Source: Oscillospiraceae bacterium (GTDB lineage: Bacteria > Bacillota > Clostridia > Oscillospirales > SIG530). From it: 39,083 nt of DNA. Of the stretch, positions 12,656 to 33,640 are shown in pieces. Every line of letters begins with the position of its first letter. Within the stretch, counting starts at the first letter, position 1. The position numbers and the translations under genes are program-made. The notes under the pieces are model-generated. The model did no database searches, had not been told where the DNA came from, and saw only the letters and a program-made list of their open reading frames with translations. The DNA lies in NCBI GenBank assembly GCA_015067075.1, contig SVND01000020.1:1-39083 (forward strand). Direction: 5' to 3'.

Positions 12656-13897
12656 TTATAAGGCAATTCGTGTACAATTGCCGTAAGGAACGACGGCGAT
12701 GGACATATTATAATTTCCTTTTCCGTTGTTAATAGCTAAAGCGGCGTTTACCGCTTCATGAAGAGAGCGGAAAGGATCGAAGAAGATCTGAGTGCTCATC
12801 GAATGGGGAATAAGACTTACATTGAATACGGCTGATTTTTGCAAAACCGTGCCGATAGATGCGCCGATATGGTTTGCAAGAGAAAAATTCTTTGCGGCGA
12901 GAGCGGCGAGATCATCAGCGCTGGAATGTCCTAAAAGAGTTAGCTGTGTTTCCTTATCTCCAAAGCCGGGTGATTCGGAAACAAATACGATAATACCGCC
13001 TTTTTTAACGGCATCTAAAACGTTCGTAAGTGCGCCGTACGAGGCTGAAAAGCTGGAATCATAGGGAAAACCGCCTGCAGAAACAACGACGATGTCGAAT
13101 TGTTTATCTGCTTTAAACTTATATATACTGTCAAAATATCCAAAGCCTTGCTTTTGCACGGTGAGCGGTTCTGCGCTGAAGCAGTTAATTATCTCATTGT
13201 TGTGATTTGCAACGATATTTATTGCGAAATCTATCGGGCAAAGCTTTGCGACGCATTCAATATCTTTTGTAATTTTATCGTAGTTGAAGGGCGGGGCGAT
13301 ATTCGTGTTACCGTAACAAGTAAGCTTGCTTTTTTCTGTAACAGCTGAGGAGATAAGCGTTTGCAAGCCGCCTGTATAACCGCAGATATTGTCGTATGTG
13401 ATGCGGTCAATGCAGATTCGAAAATCGGCATTTGCAATTGGAGAGAAAACCTCAACGGGAGTGCCTGCATCGGTTGTGCCCATATAAACGAAATCGTCAT
13501 CACATATATCAGTACAGATAACGCCTTCTTCTATGTAGCTGCCGAGTAAGAAAAGCAGTTCCGATCTATCGCAGGTTTGACAAAGCTGTTTTGAAAAGAC
13601 AACTGTTATATCTGCAAAAGAAGCTCCCGCTTCCGTCAGCATTTTAAAGGCTGTATCAAAAATATTTCGAATAAAAAAATTGGAGTCAAGACCGTTTACA
13701 ATGAGAACGATTTTTTTATTTTTGAGGTTATATGAAGAAAGGGAGCTTTTTGATATGGATCTTATGATCAAGCGCGACGTGTTTAAATTCGAAAGCTTTG
13801 CGGCCATAATGTTTTGCGGAGCAAAAACCGTGAAATCGCGATCGTCATCTATCCGCAAAGGAAGCTCCGTCTGACCGAATTTCATATACATATTCAT
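12656..13897 (-). CDS. LarA-family (lactate racemase-like, DUF2088) homologue with altered catalytic residues
   Basis: The 413-residue protein follows LarA of Lactiplantibacillus plantarum over its length: an N-terminal domain, the strand KIVLIVNG, the motif region YDNICGYTGGLQT (residues ~168-180) and FDIVVVSAGGFPYD (~262-275). LarA binds a nickel-pincer cofactor through Lys184 and His200 and catalyses with His108 and His174. By my hand alignment here Lys184 is Gln179 and His174 is Asp169, the DHTRP motif is GLDSN, and GFHRP is SKQLC. It is therefore unlikely to be a nickel racemase and may have another role. It is third in the operon, 24 bp after rbsK, so a link to pentose or nucleoside metabolism is inferred. 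Confidence 0.75.
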   Translation of the reverse strand: MNMYMKFGQTELPLRIDDDRDFTVFAPQNIMAAKLSNLNTSRLIIRSISKSSLSSYNLKNKKIVLIVNGLDSNFFIRNIFDTAFKMLTEAGASFADITVVFSKQLCQTCDRSELLFLLGSYIEEGVICTDICDDDFVYMGTTDAGTPVEVFSPIANADFRICIDRITYDNICGYTGGLQTLISSAVTEKSKLTCYGNTNIAPPFNYDKITKDIECVAKLCPIDFAINIVANHNNEIINCFSAEPLTVQKQGFGYFDSIYKFKADKQFDIVVVSAGGFPYDSSFSASYGALTNVLDAVKKGGIIVFVSESPGFGDKETQLTLLGHSSADDLAALAAKNFSLANHIGASIGTVLQKSAVFNVSLIPHSMSTQIFFDPFRSLHEAVNAALAINNGKGNYNMSIAVVPYGNCTRIAL

Positions 13898-13921
13898 GAT
13901 ATATGTCCTTTCAAAAGGAAA

Positions 13922-14848
13922 TTACTTATAAAACTCCGTGACAAGCATTTCCGTTTCTTTGCGTTTCGGTGCCGCCGTAGCTGCACCCTTGTTCGTAACG
14001 GAAATTGCGGCTGTAGCATTGGCAAATTTCAAAGCGCTTTCAATATCTGCGCCTTCCGCTAACGCAACGGCAAGACCGCCGTTGAAAGCGTCGCCTGCGC
14101 CTGTTGTATCAACGGCTTTCACCGTGGGCGGTGCAACGAGCAGGGAAGTGGTGCCGTTTGTATAGAAAGCGCCGAGCTTTCCGAGAGTGATAACCACGTT
14201 TTTTACACCTTTTTTGATCAAAGCGTCTGCCGCTTTTTGAGCGTCTGCTTGAGTTTTTACGGGAATACCCGTGAAAAATTCAGCTTCAGTCTCGTTAGGC
14301 GTTATATAGTCGATGTGGCTGAAAAGATCATCGGGAATATCCTGAAATGGCGCCGGATTGAGGATAACGGTCTTACCGTATTTTTTAGCAAGATGTATGC
14401 CTGCGGAAACGGACTCAATGCTCGTTTCAAGCTGAGTGAGGAATATATCACAGTCGGCAAATTCGCTTTCCGCCCCATGAACGTGTGCCTTTGTGATCTC
14501 ATTGTTGGCGTTTTTCATAACGATGATGCGGTTTTGTCCAGATTGCTCGTCAACTTCGATAAGTGCGCAGCCCGTATCGGTGCTGTCGCTGACGGTGATG
14601 TATTCAGTTGAAAGTCCCTCATTTTTGTAATGCTCGGTTATTACGTTGCCCAAAACGTCCTTGCCCATGCGCGCGATCATCTTTACGTTACCGCCTGCAC
14701 GTGCGGCGGCAGTTGCCTGATTGTTGCCCTTACCGCCGGGGCCAATGCGCAAATTGCTTCCCAAAACTGTTTCACCCTCAACGGGAAAGTGGGGAGTATA
14801 CGCTGTAAGATCGACCATTAAGCTTCCTACGATAACTATTTTTGCCAT
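13922..14848 (-). CDS. rbsK: Ribokinase (PfkB family)
   Basis: The 308-residue cytosolic enzyme phosphorylates D-ribose (or deoxyribose) to the 5-phosphate with ATP. PfkB signatures are present: GSLMVDL with the sugar-binding Asp, GGKGNNQATAAARAG (residues ~38-52), the NPAPF and TPNETEAEFFTG segments, and DTTGAGDAFNGG (~247-258) with the catalytic Asp253 and anion hole. The size is typical. It lies between deoC (15 bp upstream) and the LarA homologue. With DeoC it fits use of pentose parts of nucleosides; deoxyribose as substrate cannot be excluded. Confidence 0.93.
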   Translation of the reverse strand: MAKIVIVGSLMVDLTAYTPHFPVEGETVLGSNLRIGPGGKGNNQATAAARAGGNVKMIARMGKDVLGNVITEHYKNEGLSTEYITVSDSTDTGCALIEVDEQSGQNRIIVMKNANNEITKAHVHGAESEFADCDIFLTQLETSIESVSAGIHLAKKYGKTVILNPAPFQDIPDDLFSHIDYITPNETEAEFFTGIPVKTQADAQKAADALIKKGVKNVVITLGKLGAFYTNGTTSLLVAPPTVKAVDTTGAGDAFNGGLAVALAEGADIESALKFANATAAISVTNKGAATAAPKRKETEMLVTEFYK

Positions 14849-14863
14849 GACAAAATACCTCTT

Positions 14864-15496
14864 TTACTCCATAATAGCGGCACCTGCAGATGTGCCGAGG
14901 CGGTCTGCACCTGCTTCGATAAGTGCCAATGCAGATTCTTTGGTTTTGATCCCTGCGGAGGCTTTGACCTTTACGTTGCCCGTGACGTTTTTCTTCATTA
15001 ATGAAACGTCCTCGCAGGTGGCAACTCCTGCGGAAAAGCCCGTGCAGGTCTTGACGAAATGCGCACCTGCTTCACAGGAAAGCTTTACGGCGCGAACCTT
15101 TTCCTCGTCGGTTAAAAGTCCCGTTTCAATTATCACCTTGACAGTCTTACCTTTTGCGGCTTTGACAACGGCGGATATTTCATTTTTCACGTAATCGTCC
15201 ATGTTATCCTTTAAAGCGCCTACGTTTATAACCATATCAAATTCGTCACAACCAAGCTCGTATGCGTTTTCCGTTTCGGCGACCTTTACTGCCGTCGTAT
15301 TTGCGCCGAGAGGGAAGCCGATAACGGTGCAGACCTTAACGTCGCTTCCTTTAAGAAGCTTTTTTGCCAAGGGAATGTTGTAGGGATTTATACAAACGGA
15401 TGCAAAATTATATTTAACAGCTTCTTTGCAAAGCTTTTCGATATCCTGCGCCTGCGCAAAGGGCTTAAGGTTTGTGTGATCGATATATTTATTCAT
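14864..15496 (-). CDS. deoC: Deoxyribose-phosphate aldolase
   Basis: This cleaves 2-deoxyribose 5-phosphate to glyceraldehyde 3-phosphate and acetaldehyde in deoxynucleoside catabolism. The 210-residue protein is a compact (beta/alpha)8 barrel typical of the short Firmicutes form. Lys149 in FVKTCTGF is the Schiff-base lysine, Lys178 in VKASAGI is the second active-site lysine, and the Asp of [12 protein letters not shown] is also conserved. AAGGAGAGG lies before ATG. It is first gene of deoC-rbsK-larA-like, with its own consensus promoter. Confidence 0.96.
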
Positions 15497-20142: not shown

Positions 20143-21642
20143 ATGATCACAAACATACCGAATTCAAAAATTGCAGTTGTTGCCGTAAGCCGAGATTGCT
20201 TCCCTGTGGAGCTGTCACGATCAAGAAGGCAGGCTGTTTGCCTTGAATGCAAAAAAGCAGGGATAGAGGTCACGGAAATTGAGACCGTAATCGAAAATGA
20301 AAAGCAAGCTATGGCTGTGCTTGACGAGCTTATTGCAAAGAAGATAGATGCGCTCGTTATTTATCTCGGAAACTTCGGACCGGAAGGACCGACAACGATG
20401 CTTGCGCAAAAGTTTTCATCTATTTGCGGCGGTGCAGTAATGTTCGTTGCGGCGGCTGAGGACAGCGCTGATAAGCTTATCGGCGGCAGAGGCGATGCTT
20501 ACTGCGGAATGCTCAGTGCATCGTATAACCTTTCCTTGCGCGGCGTGAAGGTGTACATTCCCGAGTATCCCGTCGGCACACCCGATGAGGTTGCTGAAAT
20601 GATCGGTGGGTTTAAGCCTGTGGCTGACGCTTATACGGGAATTAAAAATCTTAAAATTATAACGTTTGGACCTCGTCCCGCTGATTTTTACGCTTGCAAT
20701 TCACCAATAAAGCCTCTTTTTGATTTGGGCGTCGAGGTTGAGGAAAACAGCGAGCTTGACCTTTTTGAGTCATTTAACGCTCATGAAAATGACGAGCGGA
20801 TCGGCGCTAAGGTCGACGAGATGAAAGCGGAGCTTGGCGAAGGACTTAATTACAGCGGCGTTTTGACAAAGCTTGCCCAATATGAGCTTACCTTGCTCGA
20901 TTGGGTAGAGGCTCACAAGGGCGCGAAGAAATACGTTGCAATTGCGGGCAAATGCTGGCCTGCGTTCCAGACACAGTTCCATTTCGTTCCGTGCTATGTA
21001 AATTCACGTCTTGCTTCAATGGGCATTCCCGTATCCTGCGAGGTGGATATTTACGGCGCACTCAGCGAGTACATAATGACCTGCATCACAAAAGCGCCTG
21101 CAACGCTTCTTGACATCAATAACAGCGTACCGCGAGATATGTACGAAAGCGAAAAGGATGGCAATCTTACGGGTTATACGAATAAGGATCTTTTCATGGG
21201 CTTCCATTGCGGAAATACTCCTTCATGCAGACTCAAACAGCCGAAGCTCAATTTCCAGCGTATTATGCACCGTTTGCTTGAGCCCGATAGCGAGCCGAAC
21301 ATCACAAGAGGCACTATCGAAGGTGATATAGCGGCATCTGATATAACTGCGTTCAGGCTTCATTCCACCGTTGACAGCAAGCTTATAAGCTATATTGCCG
21401 AGGGTGAAACAATTGATATGCCGTCCAACTCCTTTGGAAGCATCGGCGTTTTCGCAATTCACGAAATGGGCAGATTTTACAGATATGCTCTTATTGAAAA
21501 GCATTATCCTCATCACGGCGCAGTCGGCTTTGCCCATTGCGGAAAAACGCTTTACAATTTGCTCAAGCTTTTAGGCGTTGAGGATATAAGCGTAAATCTT
21601 CCCAAGGGCTTAATGTATCCCACGGAAAATCCATTTAAATAA
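20143..21642 (+). CDS. L-fucose/L-arabinose isomerase family protein
   Basis: The 499-residue cytosolic enzyme belongs to the FucI/AraA superfamily of metal-dependent aldose-ketose isomerases. Visible are the N-terminal Rossmann-like part with ALVIYLGNFGPEGPTTMLA (residues ~77-95), the central GKCWPAFQTQFHFVPCYVNSRLASMGIPVSCEVDIYGALSEY (~270-311) with candidate metal ligands Glu and Asp, and a C-terminal FHCGNTP motif (~352). The real sugar substrate cannot be read from sequence. It heads an operon with an SLH-anchored hydrolase 19 bp downstream, so it may process a sugar released by that enzyme. AGGAG lies upstream of ATG. Confidence 0.85.
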   Translation: MITNIPNSKIAVVAVSRDCFPVELSRSRRQAVCLECKKAGIEVTEIETVIENEKQAMAVLDELIAKKIDALVIYLGNFGPEGPTTMLAQKFSSICGGAVMFVAAAEDSADKLIGGRGDAYCGMLSASYNLSLRGVKVYIPEYPVGTPDEVAEMIGGFKPVADAYTGIKNLKIITFGPRPADFYACNSPIKPLFDLGVEVEENSELDLFESFNAHENDERIGAKVDEMKAELGEGLNYSGVLTKLAQYELTLLDWVEAHKGAKKYVAIAGKCWPAFQTQFHFVPCYVNSRLASMGIPVSCEVDIYGALSEYIMTCITKAPATLLDINNSVPRDMYESEKDGNLTGYTNKDLFMGFHCGNTPSCRLKQPKLNFQRIMHRLLEPDSEPNITRGTIEGDIAASDITAFRLHSTVDSKLISYIAEGETIDMPSNSFGSIGVFAIHEMGRFYRYALIEKHYPHHGAVGFAHCGKTLYNLLKLLGVEDISVNLPKGLMYPTENPFK

Positions 21643-24925: not shown

Positions 24926-25171
24926 TTATTCTTCAACAAATAATTCTTCCATTGTGACACCGAGGATTTTTGAAATAACAAATATTTCTCTGTCAGTCGC
25001 ACTTCTGACTTGACCTTCTAATTTGGAGTAGCTTGTCGGATTCATATCGCATCCCATAGTCTGTATTTTGGCGATAAAGTCTTTTTGCTTAATTCCCTTG
25101 GCTTTACGGATCCGCTCGATGTTTTTTCCTACCATGTTACAACTGCCGTATTCTTGCTTTCGGAGCTTCAT
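24926..25171 (-). CDS. XRE-family helix-turn-helix regulator
   Basis: The 81-residue DNA-binding protein is a single Cro/C1-type HTH domain: VGKNIERIRKAKGIKQKDFIAKIQTMG, then NPTSYSKLEGQVRSATDREIFVISKILGVTMEELF. The SYSKLE helix is the recognition helix. ATG 25171 has AGGAGG twelve bases upstream; an internal ATG at 25135 lacks a ribosome site. It is divergent from a region with two dyad operators (25237-25280), so it probably regulates itself and the rightward promoter there. It has no second (sensor) domain, as in small phage-like or toxin-antitoxin-like regulators; no partner gene is seen. Confidence 0.9.
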   Translation of the reverse strand: MKLRKQEYGSCNMVGKNIERIRKAKGIKQKDFIAKIQTMGCDMNPTSYSKLEGQVRSATDREIFVISKILGVTMEELFVEE

Positions 25172-25228: not shown

Positions 25229-25257
25229 TTAACAAAATTCCGAAATGGAATTATAAT
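25229..25257 (+). promoter_or_regulatory. Rightward promoter with operator in its spacer
   Basis: TTAACA (25229-25234), a 17-bp spacer and TATAAT (25252-25257) form a good promoter that reads away from the XRE gene into the nine-codon ORF and on toward the first large lipoprotein gene. The dyad at 25237-25251 fills its spacer, so a bound regulator should block RNA polymerase. Confidence 0.6.
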
Positions 25258-25307: not shown

Positions 25308-25337
25308 ATGAAGAAGTTTTTAATTTTATTATGTTGA
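25308..25337 (+). CDS. Possible nine-codon leader peptide MKKFLILLC
   Basis: GGAGG at 25294-25298 is placed nine bases before ATG, and the reading is nine codons then TGA. The peptide begins like a lipoprotein signal (Lys-Lys, hydrophobic, Cys) but stops at the Cys. Its stop overlaps the -35 box of the next promoter. It may be a leader ORF or the decayed start of a lost lipoprotein gene; expression is unproven. Confidence 0.3.
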   Translation: MKKFLILLC

Positions 25338-25362
25338 TTTTTTGTTTCAATTATGATATAAT
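25334..25362 (+). promoter_or_regulatory. Promoter of lipoprotein paralogue 1
   Basis: TTGATT (25334-25339), a 17-bp spacer and a perfect TATAAT (25357-25362) with extended TG lie 45 bp upstream of the ATG. Perfect 8-bp inverted arms GTTGATTT (25333-25340) and AAATCAAC (25363-25370) enclose it, which could be a regulator site. Confidence 0.8.
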
Positions 25363-25406: not shown

Positions 25407-28046
25407 ATGAAAAACACATTGAAAGTGTTGGCGGTATTGCTGTGCGCTTTGCTTGCTGTGTTTGCTTTTGCATCCTGCAACGAACAGCCTGCCGGCAACG
25501 ACGATGCGACACCGACACAAGCGGCTACTCCTACTCAGGCTGAGCAGGCGACACCGACTGAGTCCGAACAGGCTACACCTACGGAAACGCAGGCACCTAC
25601 TCCGACGGAAGCACCTGCGGCAAATTTCGATCAGAGCGCATACGATGCTATCGCTAAGGATAACAAGGTATCTGCGGCTGACATTTTTGAAGACGGTAAC
25701 GGCGTTATTGCTTGGTGGGACAACTATCCGAGATTTTCAGGCGGATCCGTTGAGCATTTGCTTTCGACAAATGCAGATGCTGACCATACGGGCTCCCGTA
25801 ACGACGAGGGCAGAGGACCTTTCGCAAGAGAGATCGACGCTCTTTCAGGTGTTCCCAAGCTTGAACAGCTTCACGAGATTGGACTTAAGGGCGGTGCGTG
25901 GATCGAGCTTCAGGGTGACTCCCGTAACTTCATGATGGCACTTCATCAGCTTGAAGACGGCTCTTTTGAAATTGATGAAAGAACGGGCTCGGCTCGTCTT
26001 ATGGCATGGGTCTGGGGCTGGACAGGTTCAAACGGACCTCTTCAGAATGCCGATGCTAACTATATCGTATGGTGCGGCGTTCATTCCTTTGTAAACAACG
26101 AAGAATGGGCTGAACCTTTTACACTTAAAAATTACCCCGAAATGAACGTACCGACTTATCCCGACGGCACTCCTGCACAGGGTTATCTTGACGGCGGCGA
26201 CAGATTGACGCCCCATCTTGCCACGTTCTACGATGCATGCGGCGCGAAGAACCTTAACGGAAGCATTATCCGTTTTGACGAGCTTGGTCTTTCCAGCGGC
26301 GATACAACGTATGCACTTAAGCTTGTAGACGGCAACGGAAAAGAATACTATACTGACGACTTTGCTGTCGGTAAGGACTCAGCTGCTCCTTTCTGGCTTG
26401 AATACTCTATCAACTCCGTAAATTATTGGGTAGAAAAAGGCGTAGACTTTTTCTGGATCGACAACTGGAACGGCTGGGACAACATCAACAATCGTCCTCT
26501 TAACAAGGGCTTCGGCGATTGGAGCGAATATAAGTTCAAGGAATATCTCGCTGAGCGTCCCGAGCTTGGCATAACGGATACAGCGAGCTTTGAGATCGTT
26601 GATTATCTCAAGCAGAAGGCTGTTGAAATATTCCCCGACGGCAACCCCGATGATATTTCTTACAGCAACCCCGCATGGAATGCAGAGGATTGGATAGACG
26701 ATCCTATTTGGCTTGCATATCTTGCATTCAAATCCAAGTCAAATACGGCTTATAACAGCGCTGTTTTCGAAGCTATAAAGGATGCTTCAGAAAAGAAGTA
26801 CGGCGACAGAGATTACGTTGCAGTTTGCGCAAACGACTTCCCGCATATGACGTTTGGAGCTTGCGACGGCGCATATCTTGACATTGTAAGCACGGAGTAC
26901 AGCAACGATTACTCCTCCGCAACTGGCTTTAGCACATCAGGCTATCCGCCGAACAGCTACAGCGGTCACGCATTTGGACTTATTTCAAATATTGCCCGCG
27001 CACACAATGCAGTCCTTTGGTACTATCAGAATAACTATACTGATAACATGGGTAAGGTATTCGGCTATGAGGCTTTAGCTTACAACTGCTTACTTCACAA
27101 CAACTTTGCCGGTACAACAGCTTCCAATACACTTATCAACGGCTCCATTGAAAAGCTTAAGGATATTTTCTCCGACAGACGAATCTACGCTGAGATCGGC
27201 GTCGTATTCTCTGCAGACAGTGAAACGTCTTACCTTGCACCTGGCGGCTTTGCAACGGGCGAAAAGATTCCTCACAATATGGCTTACATGGGCTGGTGCC
27301 ACGCATTTGATGAACTTAACCTTCCTTATAAGTCCATCCCCATGGATAAAATTGCTGATATGATAAGCGATTGCAGCTTTGTTATCCTTCCCGAAGTTCG
27401 CTCTATTTCTGCTGACGTTGTAAACAACGTTATCATTCCTTTCCTTGACAACGGCGGTGCTGTCCTTGTTACAGGTGCAAACGCAGGTGCTCTTGAAAGC
27501 CTTGACAACGATTTTGCAAAGCATGAAGAGCCTATCCTTGTAAAGCTTGCCAACGATTATAACGGAGCAGGCAAGGTCATCTACATGGAAACAGATATAT
27601 CTATCGATTACTTCAGCTTCAACAAGAACGTTGACTTTGATACTATCTACGATTATGCTCTCGTTCCCATCGAAGACGAGATAAAGACATGGTACGATAA
27701 CGGATATATCAATACACTTCTTACTCTTGACGGTATCGACAAGTCGGCAAGCGTTATCAGCACACTTAACTTCTCCAAGACGAACAAGGCGTTCTTTGTT
27801 GATCTTGTAAATATGCAGTATGATCCCGATACAGACGTCCTTACGGAAACTCCTGATATGACGGTTGTTAAGGTAAGAATTCCCTCCACACACTGGGGCT
27901 ACGATTATACAGTTTCTCTTTACACGGACAACACAGATGAGATAGTAACACTTACAGAAGGCACGGATTACACGGTTGACGGTGCATATATTTCCGTAAA
28001 TGTTCCCAAGTTCGGTACATACGCAACAGTTATCATCGACAGATAA
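25407..28046 (+). CDS. Large surface lipoprotein, putative glycoside hydrolase with GATase-like domain (paralogue 1)
   Basis: The 879-residue protein has a lipoprotein signal (Cys24 in AFASC) and a Thr/Pro/Glu/Gln linker (~34-72). A catalytic-looking region (~75-590) carries EGRGPF, IELQGDSRNF, FFWIDNWNGWDN (Asp352) and DIVSTEYS (Glu497). Then comes a GATase/ThuA-like segment (~593-700: IGVVFSADSETS, FVILPEVRSIS, FLDNGGAVLVTGANAG), and a beta-rich end. A barrel plus GATase-like plus beta domain order is that of GH42-type beta-galactosidases, but I find no family signature I can name, so the enzyme role is inference. Asp352 and Glu497 are conserved in all three paralogues. RBS AGAGG lies before ATG. 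It has its own promoter and terminator, and is the most diverged copy. Confidence 0.8.
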   Translation: MKNTLKVLAVLLCALLAVFAFASCNEQPAGNDDATPTQAATPTQAEQATPTESEQATPTETQAPTPTEAPAANFDQSAYDAIAKDNKVSAADIFEDGNGVIAWWDNYPRFSGGSVEHLLSTNADADHTGSRNDEGRGPFAREIDALSGVPKLEQLHEIGLKGGAWIELQGDSRNFMMALHQLEDGSFEIDERTGSARLMAWVWGWTGSNGPLQNADANYIVWCGVHSFVNNEEWAEPFTLKNYPEMNVPTYPDGTPAQGYLDGGDRLTPHLATFYDACGAKNLNGSIIRFDELGLSSGDTTYALKLVDGNGKEYYTDDFAVGKDSAAPFWLEYSINSVNYWVEKGVDFFWIDNWNGWDNINNRPLNKGFGDWSEYKFKEYLAERPELGITDTASFEIVDYLKQKAVEIFPDGNPDDISYSNPAWNAEDWIDDPIWLAYLAFKSKSNTAYNSAVFEAIKDASEKKYGDRDYVAVCANDFPHMTFGACDGAYLDIVSTEYSNDYSSATGFSTSGYPPNSYSGHAFGLISNIARAHNAVLWYYQNNYTDNMGKVFGYEALAYNCLLHNNFAGTTASNTLINGSIEKLKDIFSDRRIYAEIGVVFSADSETSYLAPGGFATGEKIPHNMAYMGWCHAFDELNLPYKSIPMDKIADMISDCSFVILPEVRSISADVVNNVIIPFLDNGGAVLVTGANAGALESLDNDFAKHEEPILVKLANDYNGAGKVIYMETDISIDYFSFNKNVDFDTIYDYALVPIEDEIKTWYDNGYINTLLTLDGIDKSASVISTLNFSKTNKAFFVDLVNMQYDPDTDVLTETPDMTVVKVRIPSTHWGYDYTVSLYTDNTDEIVTLTEGTDYTVDGAYISVNVPKFGTYATVIIDR

Positions 28047-28049
28047 ATA

Positions 28050-28089
28050 AATATAGCAGCGCTTGCTTTGCGGCAGGCGCTGTTATATT
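28050..28089 (+). terminator. Terminator of paralogue 1
   Basis: A 17-bp imperfect stem (two wobbles) with a 6-base loop is followed by TTTTATATAAAT. It begins just after the stop codon. Confidence 0.9.
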
Positions 28090-28109
28090 TTTATATAAAT
28101 AGGTCGCAA

Positions 28110-28137
28110 AATCTCACTTTTGTATTATGCAATCTCA
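28110..28137 (+). promoter_or_regulatory. Direct repeats abutting the -35 box of paralogue 2
   Basis: AATCTCA occurs at 28110-28116 and 28131-28137, exactly 21 bp apart, and the second copy ends one base before TTGACA. This is the same geometry as at the isomerase promoter. Short, so chance is possible. Confidence 0.4.
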
Positions 28138-28167
28138 TTGACAAAAGCAAAAGCTGTATTGTATAAT
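28138..28167 (+). promoter_or_regulatory. Promoter of lipoprotein paralogue 2
   Basis: A perfect TTGACA (28138-28143) and TATAAT (28162-28167) are separated by 18 bp, 32 bp upstream of the ATG. Confidence 0.85.
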
Positions 28168-28198
28168 ATACACATACTATATAAAGGTGGTATGGAAA

Positions 28199-30823
28199 AT
28201 GAAAAGATTAAATGCGCTTATTTTAGCAGCGATAATGTGCTTGGCGCTGTTCTGTTTGGCATCATGCGGTGACACGCAGGGTGCAGAGCCTACACCTGCG
28301 CCGACGGCGGCGGATACCCCCACGGCGGAACCGACTTCGGCGGCAACACCGACGACGACTGAAACACCTTTTCCGACCGGTAAGGACGGAAGCGATGAAA
28401 GCTACGATGCTGTGGCTTCACTCATGAAGGTATCGGCTTCTGATAATATGCCTGTCCATGAAAAACAGGGCTGGTGGGATTGGTTTTGCCGTTTCACCTC
28501 TATTTCCGATGCGATGAAGGTAATTGACGTTAACGCCGATGCAGGCGGCGGAGGCTCGATGGACGAGGGCAGAGGACCTTTTTCAAGAGAAGGCAACTAC
28601 ATTGATACTAAATCGACTATTGAACAGCATGAAATGCTTAAAATTAAGACCTCGTGCTGGCTTGAGTGTCAGGGCGACTCGAGAAATATGCTCACAGCGC
28701 TCCATCAGCTTGAGGACGGTTCTTTTGAAATGGACGAAAGAACGGGAGCTGCAAAAATTATTGCAACTGCTTGGACCTGGATGCATAATAATCCCTCAAA
28801 AAATGCCGATGCTAACTATATCGTATGGTGCGGTGTTCATTCTTTTGTAAATAATGAGGAGTGGGCAGAGCCTTTTGTAATTAAAAATTACCCCGAGCTT
28901 GCCGTTCCGACATATCCTGACGGAACGCCTGCACAGGGTTATCTTGACGGCGGTGACAGAACGACACCGCACCTTGCAAAGCTGTATGACGCTTGCGCAG
29001 GTAAGGACCTTAACGGCAACTTTATCCGTTACGATGAGCTTTGGCTTGTAAGTGAAAGTCAGGAGCATACTCTTGCTTTGACTGATCCCGACGGCAAGGT
29101 ATATTATACCGATGACCATTTCCATGCTAAGGATTCTGCCGCACCTTTCTGGGCTGAATACACGAAGTTTACCGCGAAATATTGGATCGAACGCGGCGTT
29201 GATTGGTTCTGGGTAGATAACTGGAACGGTTGGGACAACTTTAGTAACCAGCCTATCAGAAAAATATTCGGCGATTGGACTGAAGCTAAATTTACGGAAT
29301 ATCTCAAAGAAAATCCGCAGATAGGCGTTACTGTAACTGACGATTTCAACGTTTGCGATTATATCCGCGAAAAAGCTTTGGAGCTTGATCCCGATACGGA
29401 CGTAACGGATCTTTCAAGAGCTAATTACGTATGGCGTATGGAGCAGTGGCTTGAGGATCCTGTTTGGATGGCTCTCATGTCGTTCAAGGCTAAATCCAAT
29501 AGGGAGCATAATACGGCGTTTTATAAAGGCATAAAGGAAGCGGCGCAGGAGCTTGGAATCGATCCCAATACGATCTGCGTTACTGCAAACGATTTTCCGT
29601 ATCTTACATACGGCGCATACGACCCTGAATATCTCGATATAATCAACACAGAGTATAACTGCACCTATTCAGCTATTACAGGCTTTACAACGTCGGGCTA
29701 TCCGCCAAACGGATACAGCGGTCACGCGCTTAACCTGATGTCGAATATGTCCAAGAGTAACACAGCGGTGCTTTGGTATTATTCCGATTACAGCAATAAT
29801 GCAAATCTTTCTTACGTTTTGACGTATGAAGCCTTGGCTTATAACTGCACTATTTATTCAGGCGGCACGTCTAACGGCATTGTCGGCACAGACACGACCA
29901 TGTCGAGAACAAATAATGCTATCGGTAAGCTTCGCGAATATTTTACCGACAGACAGATCTATGCTGAGATAGGCGTTGTTCATTCCGTTGACAGCGAAAT
30001 GTCAACTCTTGCACCGGGCGGATTTGTCGATGACGAAAAAAATCCCACAACGCTCGCTTACGGAGGTTGGTGCCACGCCTTCGATGAGCTGAATATTCCT
30101 TATCGCAGTATTTCTTCTTACAGACTTGAAGAATATGCGAAGTATTGCAGCGTTTTGATCTTACCCGAGGTTCGCTCCATATCTAAAGCTGAAGTTGAAA
30201 ATATCCTTATCCCGTTCCTTGATAACGGCGGTACGCTCGTTATCACAGGTGAAAACGCAGGTATAATCGATTCGATGGAGAATAATTTTATACCGCACTC
30301 AAGTGCAATTTTAGAAGACCTTGCAAACACCTACAGCGGTAATGGAAACGTTATCTATATGGAAAAAGATATGGCTTCGGAATATTTCATTTTCCATCAG
30401 AAGGCTGATATGGAAACGCTTTACGAGCTTTATCTCAACGAGATAAATTCCATGGTTGAAGGCTGGTATGAAAAAGGATATGCTAACAAGCTTGTATCAT
30501 TTGAAAATCTTCCCGACAGCGTAGCAACGACCTTGAACTACGCTCCGTCAAACAACCATATGTTTGTGGATATCGTCAATATGCAGCTTGACGTTGACAC
30601 GGACACGGTTACAGAATTTGAGGCGGGCGTTAAGGTTAAGGTGAGATTGCCCTCATCCCTTTGGGGCAAGCGTCTTAACGTAAAGCTGTTCACAGATGAC
30701 AGCCGAAAGATAGTTGACCTTTATCCCGATACAGACTTCGTGGTTGAAAACGGAATGGTAGAGATAACACTTCCTGCGTTTGATATTTACAGCTCTATAA
30801 TAATAAGAGAATTTCCCCAATAA
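28199..30823 (+). CDS. Large surface lipoprotein, putative glycoside hydrolase with GATase-like domain (paralogue 2)
   Basis: The 874-residue protein is organised like paralogue 1: lipobox LASC (Cys23), a Pro/Thr/Ala linker ending in TPFPTGKDGSDESYDAVA, the putative catalytic region with WFWVDNWNGWDN (Asp340) and IINTEYNCTYSAITGF (Glu485), the GATase-like part (IGVVHSVDSEMS, LILPEVRSIS, FLDNGGTLVITGENAG) and a beta-rich end. It is much closer to paralogue 3, especially over the last ~130 codons. A reading from 28187 has no ribosome site; ATG 28199 lies eight bases after GGTGG and begins the signal peptide. Promoter and terminator are its own. It probably acts on a glycan at the outer face of the membrane; the activity is unproven. 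Confidence 0.82.
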   Translation: MKRLNALILAAIMCLALFCLASCGDTQGAEPTPAPTAADTPTAEPTSAATPTTTETPFPTGKDGSDESYDAVASLMKVSASDNMPVHEKQGWWDWFCRFTSISDAMKVIDVNADAGGGGSMDEGRGPFSREGNYIDTKSTIEQHEMLKIKTSCWLECQGDSRNMLTALHQLEDGSFEMDERTGAAKIIATAWTWMHNNPSKNADANYIVWCGVHSFVNNEEWAEPFVIKNYPELAVPTYPDGTPAQGYLDGGDRTTPHLAKLYDACAGKDLNGNFIRYDELWLVSESQEHTLALTDPDGKVYYTDDHFHAKDSAAPFWAEYTKFTAKYWIERGVDWFWVDNWNGWDNFSNQPIRKIFGDWTEAKFTEYLKENPQIGVTVTDDFNVCDYIREKALELDPDTDVTDLSRANYVWRMEQWLEDPVWMALMSFKAKSNREHNTAFYKGIKEAAQELGIDPNTICVTANDFPYLTYGAYDPEYLDIINTEYNCTYSAITGFTTSGYPPNGYSGHALNLMSNMSKSNTAVLWYYSDYSNNANLSYVLTYEALAYNCTIYSGGTSNGIVGTDTTMSRTNNAIGKLREYFTDRQIYAEIGVVHSVDSEMSTLAPGGFVDDEKNPTTLAYGGWCHAFDELNIPYRSISSYRLEEYAKYCSVLILPEVRSISKAEVENILIPFLDNGGTLVITGENAGIIDSMENNFIPHSSAILEDLANTYSGNGNVIYMEKDMASEYFIFHQKADMETLYELYLNEINSMVEGWYEKGYANKLVSFENLPDSVATTLNYAPSNNHMFVDIVNMQLDVDTDTVTEFEAGVKVKVRLPSSLWGKRLNVKLFTDDSRKIVDLYPDTDFVVENGMVEITLPAFDIYSSIIIREFPQ

Positions 30824-30862
30824 AATAAGCGGCGAGCGATCAACTTCGCTCGCTGTTTATTT
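30823..30862 (+). terminator. Terminator of paralogue 2
   Basis: A 16-17-bp stem (AAATAAGCGGCGAGCGA / TCGCTCGCTGTTTATTT, two wobbles) with a 6-base loop overlaps the last base of the stop codon. Confidence 0.85.
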
Positions 30863-30912
30863 GCAAAAAATGTCTTATTCAAGCTCGAAAATTGTCTGTT
30901 TACAAACGACAA
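30863..30912 (+). promoter_or_regulatory. Possible regulator sites upstream of and over the paralogue 3 promoter
   Basis: GCAAAAAATGTCTTA (30863-30877) matches 12 of 15 bases of the repeat at the isomerase promoter. A weaker copy (9 of 15) begins 22 bp later and ends at the -35 box. An imperfect dyad TTGTC-T-GTTT-AC-AAAC-GACAA (30892-30912) also covers the -35 box. Which of these is real, if any, is open. Confidence 0.35.
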
Positions 30913-30927
30913 AAAATCTGATATAAT
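30899..30927 (+). promoter_or_regulatory. Promoter of lipoprotein paralogue 3
   Basis: TTTACA (30899-30904), a 17-bp spacer and a perfect TATAAT (30922-30927) lie about 30 bp before the ATG. Confidence 0.8.
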
Positions 30928-30957
30928 TGTACCAATAATATAAAAAGGAGAATTGCG

Positions 30958-33579
30958 ATGAAAAATATTACGAAGCTTTTGGCAATGCTTATCTGCGCTT
31001 TGCTTGTCAGTCTTTGCTTTGCATCATGCGGTCAAGAGCAAAACAGCGACGAGCCCACGCCGACAGCGGTAGATACGCCGACAGCACAGCCAACTGAAGC
31101 GGCGACACCTACGGAAGCTGTAACACCTTTTCCGACAGGTAAGGACGGTAGCGATGAAAGCTATGATGCTGTTGCGGCGTTGCTTAAGGTATCCTCCTCT
31201 GACAAGCTTACTGTAAGCGAAAAACTTGGCTGGTGGGATTGGTTTTGCCGTTATACACCTAACGGTGACGCCATGGACGTATTTGACGTGAATGCAGATG
31301 CAGGCGGCAGCGGCGCAATGGATGAGGGTAGAGGTCCATTCTGCCGCGAGGATACTTATCAGGGTGTTAAAAATAATTTAGAGCTGTATGAGACTCTCAA
31401 TTTGAAATCAAATGCATGGATCGAGTGCCAAGGTGACTCGAGAAGCTTTTTAATTGCTCTTCATCAGCTTGAAGACGGCACGTTTGAAATGAACGAAAAA
31501 ACAGGCGCGGCGAAGATAATCGCAAATCCTTGGACTTGGACGACGAACGGCCCGTCAAAAAATAACAATGCAAATTATTTATGCTGGGTAGGAGTTCATT
31601 CCTTTGTGAATGACGAGCAATGGGCGGCGCCCTTTATTCTTTCAAATTACCCCGAGCTTTCCGCGCCGACTTATCCTGACGGCACAGTAGCAAAGGGTTA
31701 TTTTGACGATAGCAACGATCCTGCAAAATCTATTTTCTACGATGCTTGCGCGGCAAAGGACCTTAACGGCGACATCAGACGTTATGAAGAACTGTTTACT
31801 CAGGGAAGCGCTGATACAACGGGATTTGTTGAATATGAGGATCTTTACGGCAAAAAGTACGTTACCTGCGACTGGTCTGTAGGCAAGGATGCCTGCGCTC
31901 CTTTCTGGCTTGAATATACGAAGTTTACAACTAAGTATTGGATCGAGCGCGGAGTAGATTGGTTCTGGGTCGACAACTGGAACGGTTGGGATAACTTCAA
32001 AAACAGACCTATCGAACGTGCATTCGGCGATTGGACAGAGAAAGCGTTTACAGAGTATTTGATGGAAAATCCGCAGATCGGAGTTACTGTAACGGAAGAT
32101 TTCAATATTTGTGACTACATCCGTGAAAAAGCGCTGGAGCTTGATCCGAACACAGATGTTACTGATATAAGATATCAAAACAGCGTTTGGGCGAGAACTG
32201 AATGGATCGAGGATCCTATTTGGAAGGCTTTCCTCTCCTTCAAAGCAAAGGTCAACAGAGAATATAACACAAATTACTATAAGGGCATAAAGGAAGCGGC
32301 AAAGGAGCTTGGACTTAACCCTGACGATATCTGCGTTGCGGCAAACGACTTCCCATATCTCACATACGGTGCATACGATGCAGATTTTCTTGATATAGTA
32401 CATACAGAGTACAACTGCTCATACTCTGCCGTAACAGGCTTTACAACGTCGGGCTATCCTCCCAATGGATACAGCGGACACGCAATGAACCTTATGGCGA
32501 ATATGTCCAAGGGTACAAATGCAGTTCTTTGGTATTATACAGAGGATTATAAGAGCAATCCCAATCTTGCATACGTATTGAGCTATGAAGCCTTGGCATA
32601 TAACTGCACCATATATGCAGGTAACGCAACGGAAAACATTACGGGTACAGACCGCACAGCGGCTAAGGTAAATCAAAGCATAGGATTGCTTCGCGATTAT
32701 TTTACAGACAGAAAGATATACGCTGAAATCGGCGTTGTTTTCTCCGTTGACAGCGAAATGTCTACGCTTGCACCGGGCGGATTTGTATACGGTGAAAAGA
32801 ACCCTGCAAACGTTGCTTACGGTGGTTGGTGCCATGCATTTGACGAGCTGAATATTCCTTATCGCAGCATTTCATCTGCAAGACTTGCCCAGCAGGCAGA
32901 GCTTTGCAACGTGCTTATTCTTCCTCAGGTTCGCTCTATTTCAAAGGCTGAAGTGAACGATATACTTGTTCCTTTCCTTGACCGTGGCGGCTTGCTTGTG
33001 ATTACAGGCGAGGAAGCAGGCGTAGTTGACTCTCAGGAAAACAACTACATGGCGCACTCGAGTGCAATTTTAAAGGATCTTGCTGACACGTACAGCGGCA
33101 ACGGCAAGGTCGTATATATGGAAACCGATATTGCCGAGGAATATTTCACTTTCCATCAGAAAGCTGACATGGAAACGCTTTACGAGCTTTATCTCAACGA
33201 GATAAATTCCATGGTTGAAGGCTGGTATGAGCAGGGATATGCAAACAAGCTTGTATCATTTGAAAACCTTCCCGACAGCGTAGCAACGACCTTGAACTAC
33301 GCTCCGTACAATAATCATTTGTTTGTTGATATTGTCAATATGCAGCTTGACGTTGACACAGATACGGTTACGGATATTGAAGCGGGCGTTAAGGTTAAGG
33401 TAAGATTGCCCTCATCCCTTTGGGGCAAGCGTCTTAACGTAAAGCTGTTTGTAAACGGAAGCAAGGAAATAGTTGACCTTTATCCCGATACAGACTTCGT
33501 GGTTGAAAACGGAATGGTTGAGATAACACTTCCTGCGTTCAATATCTACAGCTCCATAATTATTCGTGAATTTCAGTAA
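30958..33579 (+). CDS. Large surface lipoprotein, putative glycoside hydrolase with GATase-like domain (paralogue 3)
   Basis: This 873-residue third copy has lipobox FASC (Cys24), a Pro/Thr/Ala linker (~33-60) and the shared segment TPFPTGKDGSDESYDAVA. The conserved core contains DEGRGPF, IECQGDSRSF, WFWVDNWNGWDN (Asp339) and VHTEYNCSYSAVTGFTTSGYPPNGYSG (Glu484). The GATase-like segment (IGVVFSVDSEMS, LILPQVRSIS, FLDRGGLLVITGEEAG) and beta-rich end follow. AGGAG lies eight bases before ATG. It differs from paralogue 2 mostly in the region of residues ~230-300, which may shape the substrate site. It has its own promoter and terminator. The function is inferred as for the other two. Confidence 0.82.
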   Translation: MKNITKLLAMLICALLVSLCFASCGQEQNSDEPTPTAVDTPTAQPTEAATPTEAVTPFPTGKDGSDESYDAVAALLKVSSSDKLTVSEKLGWWDWFCRYTPNGDAMDVFDVNADAGGSGAMDEGRGPFCREDTYQGVKNNLELYETLNLKSNAWIECQGDSRSFLIALHQLEDGTFEMNEKTGAAKIIANPWTWTTNGPSKNNNANYLCWVGVHSFVNDEQWAAPFILSNYPELSAPTYPDGTVAKGYFDDSNDPAKSIFYDACAAKDLNGDIRRYEELFTQGSADTTGFVEYEDLYGKKYVTCDWSVGKDACAPFWLEYTKFTTKYWIERGVDWFWVDNWNGWDNFKNRPIERAFGDWTEKAFTEYLMENPQIGVTVTEDFNICDYIREKALELDPNTDVTDIRYQNSVWARTEWIEDPIWKAFLSFKAKVNREYNTNYYKGIKEAAKELGLNPDDICVAANDFPYLTYGAYDADFLDIVHTEYNCSYSAVTGFTTSGYPPNGYSGHAMNLMANMSKGTNAVLWYYTEDYKSNPNLAYVLSYEALAYNCTIYAGNATENITGTDRTAAKVNQSIGLLRDYFTDRKIYAEIGVVFSVDSEMSTLAPGGFVYGEKNPANVAYGGWCHAFDELNIPYRSISSARLAQQAELCNVLILPQVRSISKAEVNDILVPFLDRGGLLVITGEEAGVVDSQENNYMAHSSAILKDLADTYSGNGKVVYMETDIAEEYFTFHQKADMETLYELYLNEINSMVEGWYEQGYANKLVSFENLPDSVATTLNYAPYNNHLFVDIVNMQLDVDTDTVTDIEAGVKVKVRLPSSLWGKRLNVKLFVNGSKEIVDLYPDTDFVVENGMVEITLPAFNIYSSIIIREFQ

Positions 33580-33596
33580 TAGCAGAAAACAAATAG

Positions 33597-33622
33597 CGGA
33601 GATGTCCGAAGGGATGTCTCCG
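33597..33622 (+). terminator. Terminator of paralogue 3
   Basis: An 11-bp stem with two wobbles (CGGAGATGTCC / GGATGTCTCCG) and loop GAAG is followed by TTTTTATTTT. Confidence 0.9.
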
Positions 33623-33640
33623 TTTTTATTTTAAAATGAC

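Follow-up and report, generated by a model that had tools for sequence, protein, structure and literature searches.

The tandem genes LP1, LP2 and LP3 probably encode glycoside hydrolases that are anchored at the cell surface. Their family, which neither Pfam nor NCBIfam catalogues, looks like a divergent sister group to GH151 and to the GHL6 + GH42M proteins. The three genes lie in a window of 39,083 nucleotides, positions 1 to 39,083 of contig SVND01000020.1 of an Oscillospiraceae assembly (GCA_015067075.1).

Each of the three genes is an intact open reading frame on the same strand, encoding 873–879 amino acids, and the parts of the products follow one order: a signal peptide with lipobox cysteine, a Pro/Thr linker, a core, a GATase-like segment and a beta-rich tail. 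The first-pass annotation had read them as consecutive large lipoproteins of common layout, and this is borne out. The core motifs (I/V)DNWNGWDN and TEY are present in all three; LP2 and LP3 are respectively 52% and 50% identical to LP1, and about 70% identical to each other. An alternative GTG start at 28187 would lengthen LP2 from 874 residues (ATG start) to 878, and two long antisense ORFs inside the array genes (27090-27893 and 31642-32403) were taken to be shadow ORFs. Immediately upstream of LP1 the opposite strand carries an 81-aa ORF (24926-25171) that by eye resembles an XRE-type helix-turn-helix protein, and just before LP1 there is a short truncated ORF resembling a signal peptide, ATGAAGAAGTTTTTAATTTTATTATGTTGA. 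Each array gene is preceded by its own promoter-like site and hairpins intervene between the genes, so that LP1, LP2 and LP3 look like separate transcription units; all of these promoter-like and terminator-like sites derive from a consensus scan only and are not evidence of function. Features of the array are listed in Table 1.

Table 1. Coordinates of the array genes, their predicted domains, proposed catalytic codons and associated sites within the window.
Feature	Position	Strand	Basis
LP1, family member 1, 879-aa lipoprotein	25407-28046	+	intact ORF; lipobox FASC-Cys24
LP2, 874-aa lipoprotein	28199-30823	+	intact ORF; lipobox LASC-Cys23
LP3, 873-aa lipoprotein	30958-33579	+	intact ORF; lipobox FASC-Cys24
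Predicted catalytic (beta/alpha)8-type domain, LP1 residues 90-595	25674-27191	+	barrel-only hhalign vs GHL6
GATase-like (GH42M) + C-terminal beta domain, LP1 residues 593-879	27183-28043	+	hhalign; PF08532 in distant paralogues
LP1 Asp352 codon, proposed nucleophile	26460-26462	+	invariant; aligns with GHL6/GH151 beta-4 Asp
LP2 Asp340 codon (= LP1 Asp352)	29216-29218	+	alignment
LP3 Asp339 codon (= LP1 Asp352)	31972-31974	+	alignment
LP1 Glu497 codon, proposed acid/base	26895-26897	+	invariant; aligns with GAES Glu of GHL6
LP2 Glu485 codon (= LP1 Glu497)	29651-29653	+	alignment
LP3 Glu484 codon (= LP1 Glu497)	32407-32409	+	alignment
Promoter-like site, LP1	25334-25362	+	consensus scan
Second promoter-like candidate, LP1	25229-25257		consensus scan
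Promoter-like site, LP2	28138-28167	+	TTGACA-18-TATAAT, 12/12, consensus scan
Promoter-like site, LP3	30899-30927	+	TTTACA-17-TATAAT, consensus scan
Terminator-like hairpin 3' of LP3	33595-33624	+	consensus scan
LP2 3' end, near-identical to LP3 3' end	30391-30823 (approximate)	+	about 91% aa
LP3 3' end, counterpart of LP2 3' end	33148-33579 (approximate)

The earlier description of the array as a tandem triplication holds in that there are three complete tandem copies, but the history is not one of plain triplication. In a tree of 21 relatives LP1 groups with a protein of Mageeibacillus sp. UBA1257, another MAG (support 0.998), while LP2 pairs with LP3 (support 1.000), and the array accounts for only a small part of the family in its genome. 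The likeliest history on these sequences is that LP1 and the ancestor of LP2 and LP3 split before the two genomes did, LP2 and LP3 being a later pair. Third codon positions of LP1 are about 30-58% identical to those of LP2 and LP3, as against about 50% identity of the proteins, from which it follows that selection has kept the reading frames over a long time. Over their last ~145 codons LP2 and LP3 resemble each other far more closely than elsewhere, with protein about 91% identical and third positions 72-88% identical versus about 50% upstream, and this suggests a recent homogenisation, by gene conversion or partial re-duplication.

The genome carrying the array (2.26 Mb in 85 contigs, 96% complete) contains at least 19 paralogues, LP1-LP3 included, which together take up 55.3 kb (2.4%) of the assembly; 12 are close (33-52% identity to LP1) and seven distant (25-31%). 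Two contig-end pieces (C59 and C85) are outside this count and probably belong to genes already in it. UBA1257 contains two members, and short patterns derived from the close members, run against a species-wide collection, matched in UBA1257 alone. Among overlapping sets of 98 same-order, 398 phylum-wide and 391 class-wide genomes a full-length member was found in one other genome only (G137, one copy), the 149 relatives of G137 that were searched yielded none apart from its own, and scans of viral contigs and of plasmids found no relatives. Outside the host genome the family is thus nearly absent among the sampled genomes of the phylum, and the real surprise is its expansion in one genome.

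In none of the family members searched is the barrel covered by a Pfam or NCBIfam model, the Pfam search being one that the first-pass annotation had proposed, and a single-sequence search of the PDB gave no match. The GH42 catalytic domain (PF02449) matches none of the scanned members, GHL6 (PF14871) has no match above cut-off in the scanned members or anywhere in the host genome, and GH29 (PF01120) has no match in the host genome. The GH42 trimerisation domain (PF08532; cut-off 25.8 bits) is passed by six distant paralogues (28-42.5 bits); in the array, LP2 is sub-threshold at 15.4 bits, and LP1 and LP3 have no match. Weak single-copy Pfam matches (New_glue, Arc_capsid, NUMOD and DNM3A_N) fall below cut-off and were dismissed as linker or low-complexity noise.

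Profile comparisons using hhalign relate the full-length family to GHL6 + GH42M proteins (99.8%, E=3e-30, and 99.9%, E=9e-33; about 457 columns). Because the GATase half could drive this match, the barrel (LP1 90-595) was also compared alone, scoring 47 bits with GHL6 and 54 bits (E=3.8e-6) with GHL6 and GH151 together; the GH42 profile (14 sequences) gives 25.8 bits (E=0.028, near background), GH151 directly 23.4 bits (background level), and GH29 16.8 bits. As controls, seven single proteins score no more than 23 bits, 60 column shuffles no more than 19.3 (the unshuffled profile, with inserts stripped likewise, gives 41.9) and a reversed template 14.8. The barrel aligns to GHL6 from beta-4 onward, with strands 1-3 unaligned. 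The C-terminal half scores 161 bits with GHL6, 83 with GH151 and 55 with GH42, and the GHL6 set in turn matches the GH151 structure 6TVK at E=4e-40, the GHL6 and GH151 barrels scoring 186 bits against each other. These scores place the family nearest to GHL6, itself close to GH151, and the family looks like a divergent relative of the GHL6/GH151 group and, more remotely, of GH42. At the sequence level the earlier proposal of a still unassigned hydrolase family finds support. The first-pass annotation had further pointed to GH42 enzymes as combining a barrel, a GATase-like and a beta domain, and the glycosidase-type three-part layout survives, with PF08532 in distant paralogues and the Asp/Glu pair kept, but GH42 is not the nearest relative, as the barrel scores and an Asp rather than a Glu at beta-4 indicate.

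Asp352 and Glu497 are invariant across the 21 aligned relatives (25-54% identity), which extends the earlier observation that the Asp of VDNWNGWDN and the Glu of TEY are unchanged in the three array proteins. Other invariant acids are Asp253, Asp276, Asp324, Asp477 and Asp492, and the invariant barrel residues include N476-D477, W538, Y540 and YPDG. At the sequence level Asp352 matches the 'DG.F.D' aspartate of GHL6 and, through GHL6, that of GH151. Counted along the alignment, the corresponding residues of the 6TVK chain are Asp183 and, in LELES, Glu264; less an offset of 29, both fit published residues of the GH151 enzyme ALfuk2 (PMC10154630): D154, the nucleophile, where beta-4 ends, and E235, the acid/base, where beta-6 ends. 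Glu497 is aligned to the GAES Glu of GHL6, and the GHL6-GH151 alignments, which are ambiguous, do not fix that Glu to E235; by analogy Glu497 would be the counterpart of E235 and the beta-6 acid/base, a fit less firm than that of Asp352 at beta-4. A retaining mechanism may be presumed by analogy with GH151, which the review describes as no more than probably retaining (PMC10154630).

AlphaFold models of the full-length protein (four sequences, mean pLDDT 40.8) and of the barrel (six sequences, mean pLDDT 38.4) are too poor to use. Foldseek with the poor full-length model returned weak matches of local pieces to GH66, GH42 and 6TVK at TM about 0.1, and with the poor barrel-only model no match at E<=0.001.

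A variety of anchors is observed. The close copies are lipoproteins wherever the N-terminus is present; of the distant copies, two end in SLH domains and three in a C-terminal hydrophobic helix followed by a KKKK/KKRK tail; a sixth carries a pair of CBM4_9 modules together with a sub-threshold match to dockerin, and the seventh (L036:3494-6082, minus strand) has no visible signal peptide and adjoins GH42 and DUF4432 genes. A LamG domain was found on a relative. A GH78-type rhamnosidase gene sits between two family copies, and other neighbours in the host genome include a GH42 enzyme, a GLAA-B/GH110-type protein, DUF6259 and a sulfatase; the G137 copy is flanked by a GH130 phosphorylase, DUF5696, and binding proteins and permeases resembling a sugar transporter. 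The window also encodes GH36, an SLH-GH5 protein and a fucose-isomerase-family protein. Judged from these modules (CBM4_9, dockerin-like, SLH and LamG) and the neighbouring glycan enzymes, the genomic setting of the family is one of glycan breakdown.

Several other features of the host genome were recorded. There are four cohesin-like domains (L116-L119), one of them within a small lipoprotein gene adjoining a family member, and a dockerin-like domain in paralogue L041; together these could form a small cellulosome-like system. A family member adjoins a gene for a 1330-aa surface protein with Pro/Thr repeats (L032:7676-11668, minus strand), for which Pfam gives low-complexity matches only. In the window, deoC, ribokinase-type kinase and lactate-racemase-like (LarA) genes stand in a row at 12656-15496 on the minus strand, LarA being named by Pfam and the other two by eye. 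The protein encoded at 20143-21642 (plus strand) has a fucose-isomerase C-terminal domain and a weak, far sub-threshold NCBIfam match to sulfoquinovose isomerase, and its sugar is uncertain. Fucose was not adopted from it as a substrate, given that the match covers the C-terminal domain only, that inspection by eye showed no comparable neighbour at the other copies and that the genome is without GH29.

In the mechanism that we propose, the signal peptide and lipobox would anchor each protein and the Pro/Thr linker would hold the enzyme out from the cell. A predicted (beta/alpha)8 barrel (LP1 about 90-595) would bear the active site, the GATase-like domain would probably have a role in assembly, as in GH42 and GH151, and the beta domain would close the protein. 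The most likely chemistry is retaining hydrolysis: on the model of D154/E235 in ALfuk2, Asp352 (end of beta-4) would be the nucleophile and Glu497 (after beta-6) the acid/base. The lineage would have multiplied this enzyme into its many differently anchored copies, a number that implies a target glycan with several related linkages, among which the copies may divide the labour. The first-pass suggestion of three copies tuned to different linkages would thus understate a family of at least 19.

The same features might be read as those of surface lipoproteins that bind glycans without catalysis, the enzyme fold having been converted to capture glycan for a transporter; a lipid anchor, linker and high copy number would suit binders too. 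When catalysis is lost, however, catalytic residues are usually free to vary, whereas Asp352 and Glu497 together with N476-D477, W538, Y540 and YPDG are invariant in every copy, even in the L036 copy that lacks a signal peptide and lies beside a GH42 enzyme; we consider the binding role unlikely. It is very improbable that the proteins are same-fold enzymes catalysing another glycan reaction, as a transglycosidase, phosphorylase or lyase. Some GH42-fold proteins are transferases (beta-1,2-glucosyltransferase entries are among the profile matches) and the G137 copy adjoins its phosphorylase gene, but most copies are anchored outside the cell, which speaks against phosphorolysis, and transfer is without specific support.

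Membership of GH42 proper, as a subfamily of beta-galactosidase type with two catalytic Glu, would account for the three-part layout, the PF08532 domain and the weak matches to GH42 crystal structures by profile and by fold. Catalysis in GH42 depends on a Glu/Glu pair, on beta-4 and beta-7, though, and where GH42 has the Glu of its NE motif on beta-4 the family has an invariant Asp within DN; with a near-background barrel score well under that of GHL6 and no PF02449 match, we give this reading little credence. A kinship with the GH96 alpha-agarases, which would make alpha-linked galactans the substrate, is similarly improbable. The distant-paralogue profile does match the alpha-agarase structure 9M0B from beta-4 on (E=1.1e-4), and the Asp and Glu, 145 residues apart in the family, recall the pair D994/E1129 of the GH96 enzyme Cm-AGA, implicated by mutagenesis and 135 residues apart (PMC11311870). 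But the match covers about 110 residues and falls to E=0.006 with a broader profile, the matched region (an acidic loop and 'F..YL..' helix) is loosely common to GH42-like barrels, and the GATase-like domain points to GHL6/GH151.

We thus favour the reading as glycoside hydrolases of the GHL6/GH151 branch. Its fuller form—a family outside CAZy (judged from absence in Pfam and NCBIfam), with an Asp(beta-4)/Glu(beta-6) site in a GH42-like frame, and at least 19 mostly surface-bound copies in one small clostridial lineage—is offered tentatively, as somewhat short of an even prospect. If true, the family would be the lineage's main tool against one complex glycan, and would represent one family diversified in place, as opposed to a polysaccharide utilisation locus put together from many. 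So many copies in 2.26 Mb, all keeping the acid pair but varying elsewhere, point to one strong nutritional specialisation. Unassigned enzyme families are a main gap in reading the diets of gut and environmental anaerobes; this natural set of paralogues on one fold would permit substrate specificity to be mapped residue by residue, and the family would extend the GH151/GHL6 branch, in which characterised enzymes are few.

Among known systems, the GHL6 (PF14871) + GH42M (PF08532) proteins, with their 99.8% full-length hhalign match, share the barrel/GATase-like/beta order, a WW(D/E)-type start and a beta-4 'G.DG.F.D' matching 'G.D.FW.D'; the family differs in that no member reaches the PF14871 cut-off, in insertions before and after beta-4 (the YPDG region; about 145 residues between the acids) and in carrying lipoprotein, SLH or membrane anchors. 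GH42 beta-galactosidases have the same three-part architecture and a trimerisation-type domain, but a Glu/Glu pair in place of Asp/Glu and a barrel to which the family profile is near background. A putative relation to the GH96 alpha-agarases would rest on a short match around beta-4, confined to about 110 residues of 9M0B, and on the similarly spaced Asp/Glu pair of Cm-AGA. With the GH151 alpha-L-fucosidase ALfuk2 (6TVK) the family shares the beta-4 Asp and Rossmann/GATase and C-terminal beta domains, and it may share the beta-6 Glu; its barrel has no direct match (23.4 bits), and a genome is reported to carry two GH151 copies at most (PMC10154630), as against at least 19 of this family in its host.
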